Positions 29,716 to 34,089 of a DNA stretch of 36,962 nucleotides are shown in pieces. Both the position numbers and the translations under genes were made by a program. Numbering within the stretch: the first letter of the stretch is position 1; each line of letters starts with the position of its first letter. The stretch lies in assembly GCA_022822085.1 (NCBI GenBank), contig JAJECK010000129.1, positions 1 to 36,962 of the forward strand, written 5' to 3'. Origin of the DNA: Candidatus Poribacteria bacterium (GTDB lineage: Bacteria; Poribacteria; WGA-4E; WGA-3G). The notes beneath the pieces were generated by a model that worked only from the letters and a program-made list of their open reading frames with translations, did not search any database and had not been told where the DNA came from.

Positions 29716-30762
29716 CTAATGCACTTCAATGTGTGCTGCATCTGTCCCAACTACTTCACCGATTACAGAAGCTTCTGGACAATCTGCTGCTTGAAGTTCC
29801 TTAAGTGCCGCATCGGCATTTTCTGCAGGAAGAGCAAATAACAAGCCACCGGAAGTTTCAGCTTCCATTAGAATATGTTGCATTTCATCCGATACAGAAG
29901 AATTGAAAGATACCTTACCTGTAAGGAACTTTGTGTTTGCAAGATATGCTTGCGTATAGGTCTTCTTTGCGACAAGTGAAGGGGCATCTTCAAAATAAGG
30001 CACAGCACTACTATCTATCCGTAGACGAACATTATTGCCTTCTACCATTTCTGTTGCATGCCCTAACAAACCATACCCCGTCACATCTGTACAGGCAGTC
30101 GCTTCGTATTTCAACATTACTTTAGATGCAGATGCATTCAGACGTGTCATCGATTCAACAACTTGAGGTAGCACTTCTTCTCCGATTTTTTTGAACTTCA
30201 AACCAGTTGTGAGGATACCTATTCCAAGGTTTTTTGTCAGAATCAGAACATCACCAGGACGTGCACCATAGTTTTTCACATATTTATCGGGATGCACGAC
30301 ACCCGTTACTGCTAAACCATACATTAATTCTGGTGATTCCACAGTATGTCCTCCGACAAGTGCAGCCCCTGATTCTGTTGCTTTATCTCCACCGCCTTTT
30401 ACTATTTCGCCTAATATTGAAATATCAAGGTCATTTTTAGGCCAACATGTAATGTTCAACGCAGTTTTTGGAATTCCACCCATACTATAAACATCACTTA
30501 GGGAATTTGTTGCTGCGATTGCACCAAATGTATACGGATCGTCAACAATAGGTGTAAAGTAGTCTACAGTATTAACAAGAGCGATGTCGTCGGTAATACG
30601 GTATATCCCAGCATCATCAGAGGTTTCTGTACCTACGAGAAGATTCGGATCCGTCGATTTAGGTAGGTTGTCTAAAATGTGTGAAAGCTCACCCGGAGCA
30701 AGTTTTGATGCTCACCCCGCACATTTTACTGTTGCGGTAAGTCGTATCTTTTTCTTAGTCAT
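29716..30762 (-). CDS. selD: Selenophosphate synthase SelD, selenocysteine-containing
   Basis: SelD converts selenide and ATP to selenophosphate, the donor for selenocysteine. The full gene runs 348 codons from ATG 30762 through an in-frame TGA at codon 17 (30714-30712). Upstream residues read MTKKKIRLTATVKCAG, then Sec17, then ASKLAPGELSHIL. Sec17 and Lys20 fall at the positions of the catalytic Cys17 and Lys20 of E. coli SelD. Downstream are TSDDAGIYRI, ALVNTVDYFTPIVDDPY, GAIAATNSLSDVYSMGG, the ATP-binding VGGHTVESPELMYGLAVTG and CTDVTGYGLLGHATEM. A small stem-loop follows the TGA. A caller that stops at TGA would report only the C-terminal 255 residues. It lies between an HD-hydrolase gene (75-base gap) and pyrE. 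Confidence 0.93.
30687..30714 (-). promoter_or_regulatory. Sec codon and candidate SECIS hairpin in selD
   Basis: UGA at 30714-30712 is followed 16 bases later by apical loop CGGGU (30695-30691), closed by GCUC (30699-30696) and GAGC (30690-30687), with an A-rich/U-rich extension below a bulge. A G within the first two loop bases and this distance fit the bacterial SECIS rule, although the 4-bp core stem is short. Confidence 0.6.
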
Positions 30763-31654: not shown

Positions 31655-33109
31655 ATGAACAAAATAGCAATTGGTGGAATAATGCACGAATCTAATACAT
31701 TCAGTGCAACACCTACAGATTTCAATGCTTTTAACTATTCAGTAGGCGAAGATGTAATTTCTGTATGGAAAGACACGCACCATGAAATAGGTGGATTTAT
31801 TGAATGTATTAGAGATCAAAACTTTATCGGAATTCCTACTTTGATGGCTTCCGCTACACCTGCTGGACCTGTGACAGACGCTGCTTTAGATAAACTAACC
31901 GATATGCTCATTCAACAACTCAAGACAGTACAGAACCTTGATGGGATACTGCTTGCATTACACGGGGCAATGGTGGTTGACAGTTATCCAGATGGTGACG
32001 GTGAAGTTCTGCACAGATTGAGAGCGGAATTTGGAGATTCTATACCTATTGTTGTAACACTTGACCATCATGCAAATGTTTCACAACAGATGGTAGACAA
32101 ATCTACAGCATTGATTATCTACAAGACAAATCCACACATTGACCAACGTCAGAGGGGCATACAAGCGGGTGAAGTGTTGATTCGTATCCTAAAGCAAGAT
32201 GTTCTGCCAACCCAAGCACTTGCTAAACCACCGATGATACTCAACATACTGTATCAGAACACCAGTGCAGAACCAATGTCATCTATCGTGAAGCATGCTG
32301 TGCAATTAGAAAACGAACATAAAATCCTTGTTGCGAATGTTGCTGCGGGATATCCTTATGCTGATGTTTTTGAGATAGGGCCATCCTTCGTCGTAGTTAC
32401 AAACAATGATCCACAACTTGCACAAACTGAGGCGGATAGGTTGTCTGATATGTTGTGGAATGTGCGTGACCGATTGTCTTTGAATCTACCTGATGCTGAA
32501 AACGCTGTAAAAAAAGCAATCCAAAGTAGAGAGCATCCAGTGGTCCTTGTTGAAATGGGTGATAACATAGGTGGCGGTTCACCAGGAGATAGCACAATCA
32601 TCCTGGCAGAATTGTTACAACAAAAGGCTACTGAATTTGTTATTGTCCTTTGGGATCCTGATTGTGTTCAAACCTGTATACAGTCAGGTGTTGGTAACCA
32701 AGTTTCTCTTAGGGTCGGAGGAAAAACCGATGATTTACATGGTCAACCTGTACCAATCCAAGGGAAAGTCCGCTTAATCCATGATGGTCAATATATTGAG
32801 ACCGAACCACGACACGGAGGACAGAGACATCATAATCAAGGGATAACTGCAGTCGTTGAAGTAAATGATTCCTTGGTTGTCCTAACAAGTAATCGTCAAA
32901 CACCGTTCAGTCTACAGCAGCTGTTGAGTCTTGGAATTGATTCAAAAAGAATGAATATAATTGTCGTAAAAGCAGCAATTGCATATCGGGCCGCCTATGA
33001 ACCGATTGCAGGGAAGATTATTGAGGTGGATACACCGGGTTTGACTGCTGTGAATCCACTGCATTTTTCATATCAGAATGTTCGCAGCCCTTTGTTTCCG
33101 TTGGATTGA
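31655..33109 (+). CDS. M81-family metallopeptidase (MlrC-like)
   Basis: This 484-residue cytoplasmic protein is of the MlrC family, named for microcystin-peptide degradation but widespread in bacteria with unknown substrates. The N-terminal domain has GIMHESNTFS, ALHGAMVVDSYPDGDGE, VTLDHHANVS and YKTNPHIDQRQRG, providing the metal-binding Glu/Asp/His residues. The C-terminal MlrC domain has EMGDNIGGGSPGDSTIIL and the late SLGIDSKRMNIIVVKAAIAY then RAAYEPI. The ATG sits behind AGGAT. It is divergent from the HD gene over a 196-base gap and is probably monocistronic, since a new promoter precedes the TPR gene. The microcystin role itself is not implied. Confidence 0.9.
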   Translation: MNKIAIGGIMHESNTFSATPTDFNAFNYSVGEDVISVWKDTHHEIGGFIECIRDQNFIGIPTLMASATPAGPVTDAALDKLTDMLIQQLKTVQNLDGILLALHGAMVVDSYPDGDGEVLHRLRAEFGDSIPIVVTLDHHANVSQQMVDKSTALIIYKTNPHIDQRQRGIQAGEVLIRILKQDVLPTQALAKPPMILNILYQNTSAEPMSSIVKHAVQLENEHKILVANVAAGYPYADVFEIGPSFVVVTNNDPQLAQTEADRLSDMLWNVRDRLSLNLPDAENAVKKAIQSREHPVVLVEMGDNIGGGSPGDSTIILAELLQQKATEFVIVLWDPDCVQTCIQSGVGNQVSLRVGGKTDDLHGQPVPIQGKVRLIHDGQYIETEPRHGGQRHHNQGITAVVEVNDSLVVLTSNRQTPFSLQQLLSLGIDSKRMNIIVVKAAIAYRAAYEPIAGKIIEVDTPGLTAVNPLHFSYQNVRSPLFPLD

Positions 33110-33561: not shown

Positions 33562-34089
33562 ATGTCTAAATATAATCTGCTTAATCCTACTTCTCAAGAG
33601 GAAACAACTGAGAAATATCTTGCCCCTCGATTGGACAATCTTGATGGGAAAGTCATGGGACTATTAGATATAACAAAAAATGGAAGTGATATTTTCCTTG
33701 AACGTGTTGAGGAATTAATCTGTGAGCAATTTGATATCGCTGAAGTAGTTCGTATCAAAAAACCGACATTTTCCCGTCCAGCACCAACCGAATTGCTTGT
33801 CAATCTTGCAGACCGGTCAGATTTCGTTGTGGAAGGTCTTGCAGACTGAGGATCATGTATATCGTGCAGTATGCACGATGGCAGTGTTTTAGAGGAACAT
33901 GGTGTCCCAAGTGTTGCGATATGCACGGAAGTATTTTTCTCTGCAGGAAAAGTTCAGGCACGCGTTCTTGGACATAGTGACTTAGAACCACTCACTGTGG
34001 AACATCCTATTCAAAGTCTGACAAAAGAAGAAATTCGTCAACGGGCAGATGGGATTGTTGAGAAAATTGTAGATCGGTTAACAAAATAG
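33562..34089 (+). CDS. UGSC-family selenoprotein
   Basis: Two reading frames, interrupted only by TGA at 33847-33849, are in the same frame and read as one 175-residue protein with selenocysteine at position 96. The centre is VVEGLAD, Sec, GSCISCSMHDG, the hallmark of the UGSC family, in which the first residue is Sec or Cys. Flanking conserved parts are LAPRLDNLDGKVMGLLDITK, KPTFSRPAPTELL, EEHGVPSVAICTEVF and EEIRQRADGIVEKIVDRL. A strong hairpin follows the TGA. The biochemical role of the family is unknown to me; U-G-S-C suggests a selenothiol redox or metal site. GGAG lies 10 bases before ATG 33562. It is cotranscribed with the TPR gene. Two adjacent short genes or a pseudogene are the alternatives, but conservation after the TGA argues against both. 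Confidence 0.9.
33847..33879 (+). promoter_or_regulatory. Sec codon and SECIS hairpin in the UGSC gene
   Basis: UGA (33847-33849) is followed by AUCGUGCA (33861-33868), loop GUA (33869-33871) and UGCACGAU (33872-33879), a perfect 8-bp stem. The loop begins with G, 19 bases after the UGA, as expected for a bacterial SECIS element bound by SelB. Confidence 0.8.

Follow-up and report, generated by a model that had tools for sequence, protein, structure and literature searches.

The UGSC family dates back in the literature to 2008 or earlier (GOS survey, PMC2398784) and is named in both Pfam (PF24696) and NCBIfam (NF041046). That survey reported a fusion of UGSC to a separate conserved domain, 'Unknown_1' (its Figure S1A). 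No function has been established for the family (PMC13188914), as the initial annotation of the gene described here had said, and no description of a poribacterial member was found in the searched literature. The closest enzymes of described chemistry are D-proline reductase and glycine reductase, two-subunit enzymes whose selenocysteine (Sec) subunits are PrdB and GrdB (PF07355, TIGR04483 and TIGR01917). For PrdB, it has been proposed that a selenolate attacks the alpha-carbon of the substrate and that a Cys brings about release as a selenide-sulfide, which is then re-reduced (PMC3091704). In glycine reductase, reducing power comes from NADPH, thioredoxin reductase and thioredoxin, and the 436-residue GrdB protein of C. 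sticklandii has its Sec at position 350 (PMC3091704).

A UGSC gene predicted to be read through an in-frame UGA

We analyzed a window of 36,962 nucleotides from a Candidatus Poribacteria genome (contig JAJECK010000129.1), in which the following features were identified:

29716-30762, minus strand: selD, selenophosphate synthetase, itself a selenoprotein (UGA codon 17 at 30712-30714; TIGR00476 match of 1e-69 for the part of the frame that follows the UGA)
31655-33109, plus strand: MlrC-like M81 metallopeptidase (PF07364, 6.3e-93), single copy in the genome
33217-33543, plus strand: TPR protein of 108 amino acids (TPR Pfam matches), directly upstream of the UGSC gene
33562-34089, plus strand: UGSC family selenoprotein, 175 amino acids on read-through, with ATG at 33562 and a TAG stop at 34087-34089
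33847-33849, plus strand: predicted Sec codon UGA (codon 96, U-G-S-C motif), the sole internal TGA; TGA in full-length Poribacteria homologues and a Cys codon in distant ones
33860-33880, plus strand: bacterial SECIS hairpin (stem 33860-33868/33872-33880, loop GUA at 33869-33871), based on folding, codon freezing and published rules

The read-through product matches PF24696 with an E-value of 7.9e-50 (169.8 bits, cut-off 25) and the NCBIfam model 'UGSC family (seleno)protein' with 157.1 bits (curated cut-off 125). The half before the TGA covers positions 2-92 of the 172 positions of the UGSC model and the half after it covers positions 94-171, leaving the Sec position alone uncovered. The initial annotation, which had placed a single TGA at codon 96 between two stretches of sequence from a family with Sec and Cys variants, is thus borne out: its coordinates are exact, the two halves match the respective sides of the profile, and Cys homologues align at codon 96. 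It had also called the selenoprotein hidden and expected ordinary annotation to give two short hypothetical proteins. Such a split is seen in the deposited annotation of Paracoccus ferrooxidans, where selB lies about 4 kb from the gene; because UGSC already has a name and entries in the family databases, the gene is hidden from naive ORF callers only.

Internal stops are absent from 22 of the 24 genes in the window, and the two interrupted genes, UGSC and selD, contain one TGA each. TGA is also the ordinary stop of four of the 24 genes, including the MlrC gene two genes upstream of UGSC. Because TGA terminates ordinary genes in this genome, the UGA at codon 96 points to recoding and not to an altered genetic code. 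The absence of selA, selB or selC and homologues ending at the UGA had been named beforehand as findings that would speak against read-through; selA (4.7e-163), selB (1.1e-105), selC (the tRNA-Sec, with anticodon TCA, immediately adjoining selB) and selD are all present in the genome, and no homologue ending at the UGA position was found. On read-through, the selD product begins MTKKKIRLTATVKCAGUASKLAPGE, and ordinary ORF calling places its start about 90 residues late. The SECIS element of selD itself is weak, with a short stem after the UGA.

The hairpin downstream of the UGSC UGA had been described as an 8-bp stem with a G-first loop, 19 bases after the UGA. The hairpin is present, with eight Watson-Crick pairs plus one G-U pair and a 3-nt GUA loop, but the 19 nt correspond to the spacing between the UGA and the loop, the hairpin itself starting 11 nt downstream of the UGA. 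Its minimum free energy is -16.7 kcal/mol (z = -2.7; 3 of 200 shuffled sequences were equally good). An Rfam scan of the whole window at gathering thresholds gave no matches, and SECIS rules were therefore applied by hand. The published constraints on bacterial SECIS elements are a loop of 3-9 nt, a stem of 4-16 bp, a G within the first two loop positions, a spacing of 16-37 nt and a minimum free energy of -7.5 kcal/mol or lower (PMC13188914), and the UGSC hairpin agrees with every one of them.

Among 54 Poribacteria genes, the hairpin codons are the most constrained stretch of the gene: synonymous entropy is 0-0.13 bit at codons 101, 102, 103 and 105, against a mean of 1.27 bits at conserved residues elsewhere in the gene. 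The frozen codons are TCG-TGC-AGT-(ATG/GTG)-CAC, with entropies of 0, 0.13, 0 and 0 bits for the degenerate ones. All seven core pairs are kept in 57 of 57 Sec genes, and in Acidovorax, where residue 102 is Trp, the stem is maintained by a compensated change from C-G to G-C on both sides. Genes with Cys also pair at this site (7/7 in Halorientalis and 6/7 in three other haloarchaeal genes); pairing by itself thus fails to tell Sec genes from Cys genes, and the frozen codons make the stronger case for a SECIS element. With the TGA kept in all 60 full-length homologues of the phylum and the hairpin codons frozen, the combination of TGA and hairpin is beyond chance. We therefore predict, with very high confidence, that the codon 96 UGA of this sponge-symbiont gene is decoded as Sec.

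Outside the hairpin, two further codons show little variation despite the existence of a synonymous codon: codon 95 (33844-33846), immediately before the UGA, is GAC in 54 of 54 Poribacteria genes, and codon 91 (33832-33834) is GAA in 53 of 54.

Homologues, neighbors and a co-inherited partner family

The UGSC family is carried by 63 of 85 Poribacteria genomes, and each of the 60 full-length copies in the phylum has exactly one internal TGA. A search with the C-terminal half returned 53 genome contigs, all assigned to 'Candidatus Poribacteria' or uncultured Poribacteria, with TGA at the site in every one. On plasmids, the position corresponding to codon 96 encodes Cys in 11 homologues (Halorientalis, two Natrinema, Halalkalicoccus, Haloterrigena, Halosolutus, Roseovarius, Arthrobacter, Embleya and two Variovorax) and is TGA in those of Acidovorax and Paracoccus. 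The Sec or Cys and the Cys three residues downstream (Cys+3) are retained in every separate UGSC protein examined. The poribacterial protein thus resembles the described family in its full-length match above curated cut-offs, its UxxC motif, the exchange of Sec and Cys at one position and its downstream SECIS element (PF24696/NF041046; PMC2398784). It differs in that it always carries Sec within the phylum, and in that its partner, described below, is mostly encoded apart, whereas the two are adjacent or fused in the plasmid and GOS examples.

Beside UGSC on plasmids, we identified a conserved family of 330-370 amino acid proteins (A2, here called the partner) with the motifs 'TDGLPVVPPT' and 'NAVMAGC', for which Pfam and NCBIfam gave no credible match. 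Both UGSC and the partner are present in 61 Poribacteria genomes, UGSC only in two, the partner only in two and neither in 20, so that 61 of the 63 UGSC carriers encode the partner (Fisher p = 4e-15, in a test that ignores relatedness). On the gene tree of a third selenoprotein, the joint absence amounts to three changes within the sample. The genomes that lack both genes in the genus concerned keep selB, and the joint absence is therefore not loss of Sec as such.

In most Poribacteria, the partner gene is unlinked to UGSC: in the present genome it lies on another contig (C19:27824-28615), and in a closed genome (G010) it lies about 605 kb from UGSC. The two are adjacent or fused in three Poribacteria (G042, G040 and G053). 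The partner is present in 15 of 15 plasmid records with UGSC, adjacent or fused wherever the neighborhood was read, and the partner record of Variovorax SRS16 has a UGSC gene alongside. For the Haladaptatus partner, no UGSC gene was found within the 11 kb read. Fusions of the partner to UGSC occur in Variovorax, Acidovorax, Neorhizobium, Sporomusa and Vibrio; in Sporomusa, Vibrio and a Neorhizobium plasmid (the one read among five Neorhizobium records), a UGSC-like domain lies in front of the partner. Because of these fusions, the partner family is probably the 'Unknown_1' domain of the GOS survey, likewise a distinct conserved domain joined to UGSC; there it is an occasional fusion, whereas here it is a general co-inherited partner. 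We consider it highly probable that UGSC and the partner form an obligate two-component system. No member of the partner family was found in the viral collection.

In the Sporomusa and Vibrio fusions (L173:4362-6086 and L174:4335-6020), which lie near aconitase X and DUF126 genes, MGTS replaces the UGSC motif; part of the family therefore appears to work without Sec or Cys. In two haloarchaeal clusters (L175 and L122), the partner is found with a CoA transferase, a CoA ester lyase, an LLM flavin oxidoreductase, DUF6282 and a TAXI-TRAP system.

The MlrC, TPR and UGSC genes are collinear in the window. The TPR gene has this place before UGSC in 40 of the 53 loci from Poribacteria and is probably co-transcribed with it. 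M81 (MlrC) genes, seen here and at L151, L167, L168, L170 and L171, are found near UGSC in four loci of one clade and beside the unlinked partner in five genomes of another family, which suggests that MlrC shares a process with UGSC and the partner and is a possible functional neighbor.

Thioredoxin genes also recur: trxB, or trxA together with trxB, adjoins the UGSC/partner pair in Roseovarius, Arthrobacter and Variovorax SRS16. In the genome of the window itself, no trxA or trxB gene was observed beside either member of the pair. In two other Poribacteria, a thioredoxin-like CPTC domain (with weak Pfam matches, E = 2e-5 to 0.08) is either fused to the partner (G042, L146:9550-10971) or encoded by a separate adjoining gene (G040, L147:1346-1687).

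Predicted fold and distant relation to PrdB

An AlphaFold2 model of UGSC (pLDDT 79, moderate; pTM 0.78) predicts a Rossmann/flavodoxin-like beta-alpha-beta-alpha-beta arrangement, in which Sec96 lies just after the third strand. The PDB neighbors of the model found by Foldseek are flavodoxin- or Rossmann-like and weak (best E = 1.8e-4, TM < 0.6), and no thioredoxin was present among the top 50 PDB matches listed, which argues against the thioredoxin-like fold suggested earlier. Foldseek comparison with viral structures was uninformative, and searching PDB sequences with UGSC, with the partner or with the PrdB-like alignment brought up no credible relative.

When UGSC was compared with PrdB/GrdB-like proteins at the profile-profile level, the E-value was 6.6e-6 (probability 85%), and comparison of plasmid UGSC proteins with four Firmicute PrdB sequences and one alphaproteobacterial relative gave 9.6e-7 (probability 91%). 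The alignment spans only about 64 residues and places Sec on Sec and the resolving Cys (Cys+3) on Cys+3. The reversed template gave an E-value of 0.61, the best of 41 unrelated families gave 0.0065, and with the four motif residues masked the match still reached 1.8e-5. An apparent cross-hit to the partner cluster in this calibration was not counted as background, as the aligned stretch reads as the C-terminal part of UGSC fused ahead of a partner gene (L148). It should be noted that an earlier comparison, in which the PrdB side consisted of Poribacteria sequences alone, did not reach significance (E = 0.12); the match became significant after clostridial PrdB and more diverse UGSC sequences were added.

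Based on these comparisons, the Sec domain of UGSC appears to be a distant homologue of the Sec subunit PrdB of D-proline reductase. UGSC and PrdB/GrdB have in common a Sec in a U-G-[TS]-C motif, the profile homology over about 64 residues and, with the partner, probably a two-subunit organization; feeding by thioredoxin is a feature of glycine reductase. They differ in that HMMER detects no match between UGSC and PF07355 at E <= 10, the relation being detectable by profile-profile comparison only, with a HMMER hint to GrdB (TIGR01917, E = 0.18) over its Sec region. They also differ in that no PrdA/GrdE-like pyruvoyl subunit was found (compared with one PrdA sequence, the partner gave E = 0.48 and no recognizable similarity), and in that UGSC extends to haloarchaea, Proteobacteria and Actinobacteria, whose members of the family mostly have Cys. 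As far as the searched literature shows, the near-strict co-inherited partner and the homology to PrdB are new here.

The genome also encodes a PrdB/GrdB-like selenoprotein (PF07355) of its own (L117, C150:12882-13247). All copies read (loci L102-L121) are interrupted by UGA within a U-P-x-C site, and this selenoprotein is likely mis-annotated as well.

A proposed reductase and competing explanations

The best explanation of these data, which we hold to be only just on the probable side, is that UGSC is the Sec subunit of a thioredoxin-fed two-component reductase with PrdB-like chemistry, acting on a small organic substrate. As we infer it, the selD product would supply selenium for Sec, and SelB and tRNA-Sec would decode the codon 96 UGA, directed by the downstream hairpin. 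The UGSC product would then act as the Sec subunit, with the partner of about 330 amino acids encoded on contig C19 probably binding the substrate. By analogy with the mechanism proposed for PrdB, Sec96 as the selenolate would be the attacking group on a small organic substrate, Cys99 of the UGSC motif would resolve the adduct to give a selenenylsulfide, and thioredoxin and thioredoxin reductase would re-reduce it. The sequence evidence behind this model comprises the Sec codon, the SECIS element, the Sec machinery, the co-occurrence and fusion with the partner and the homology of the Sec site to PrdB. Weighing against it are the short span of the PrdB alignment, the negative HMMER result for PF07355, the dissimilarity of the partner to PrdA, the negative result for trxA and trxB beside the two genes in this genome, the MGTS fusions and the moderate confidence of the structural model. 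PrdB-like reductive chemistry, taken by itself and by analogy, is in our judgement evenly balanced. Judging from the gene neighborhoods of other organisms, the candidate substrate class is small organic acids or their amide or CoA derivatives.

The UxxC motif and the trxB neighbors would also suit a general thiol-redox protein of the thioredoxin or peroxiredoxin type, in which Sec would be a fast peroxidatic or exchange residue and there would be no dedicated organic substrate. We consider this unlikely, as the predicted strand order and the Foldseek matches are flavodoxin/Rossmann-like and not thioredoxin-like, and as a general antioxidant fits poorly with near-strict pairing with one partner family and with the varied, catabolic-looking contexts of the genes.

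Somewhat less likely still is that UGSC and the partner constitute a hydrolase, lyase or racemase, in which Sec or Cys would be nucleophilic or metal-binding and would undergo no redox turnover. The fusions near aconitase X genes, whose motif reads MGTS and not UGSC, are consistent with such an enzyme, as are the M81 peptidase, DUF6282 and amidohydrolase-like neighbors. The conservation of both Sec/Cys and Cys+3 in every separate UGSC protein examined and the recurrence of trxB or trxA beside UGSC argue against it.

Sec96 could also serve as a metal ligand, for example in mercury or arsenic detoxification, since some Sec proteins of unassigned function are thought to bind metals (PMC13188914); in the annotated loci that were read, no metal-resistance gene lies beside either of the two genes, and we regard this role as very improbable. 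Finally, we give next to no probability to the TGA being a genuine stop or having arisen by pseudogene mutation or sequencing error: although TGA is an ordinary stop in four of the 24 window genes, the same TGA is found in 60 assemblies of different species and is followed by an intact conserved frame with frozen hairpin codons, in a genome with complete Sec machinery.

Returning to the thioredoxin-fed two-component reductase, we tentatively suggest, at somewhat less than even confidence, that UGSC and its partner may represent an additional class of Sec/Cys reductases, with proline and glycine reductase as relatives. This class would have an apparently non-PrdA/GrdE partner, would be fed by thioredoxin and would extend across bacteria and haloarchaea, with some branches having lost the Sec/Cys pair. 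A partner inherited and lost together with UGSC, the distant homology to PrdB and the repeated presence of trxB nearby make the function of UGSC a testable biochemical question, for which Paracoccus and Acidovorax strains offer the Sec form and haloarchaea the Cys form.
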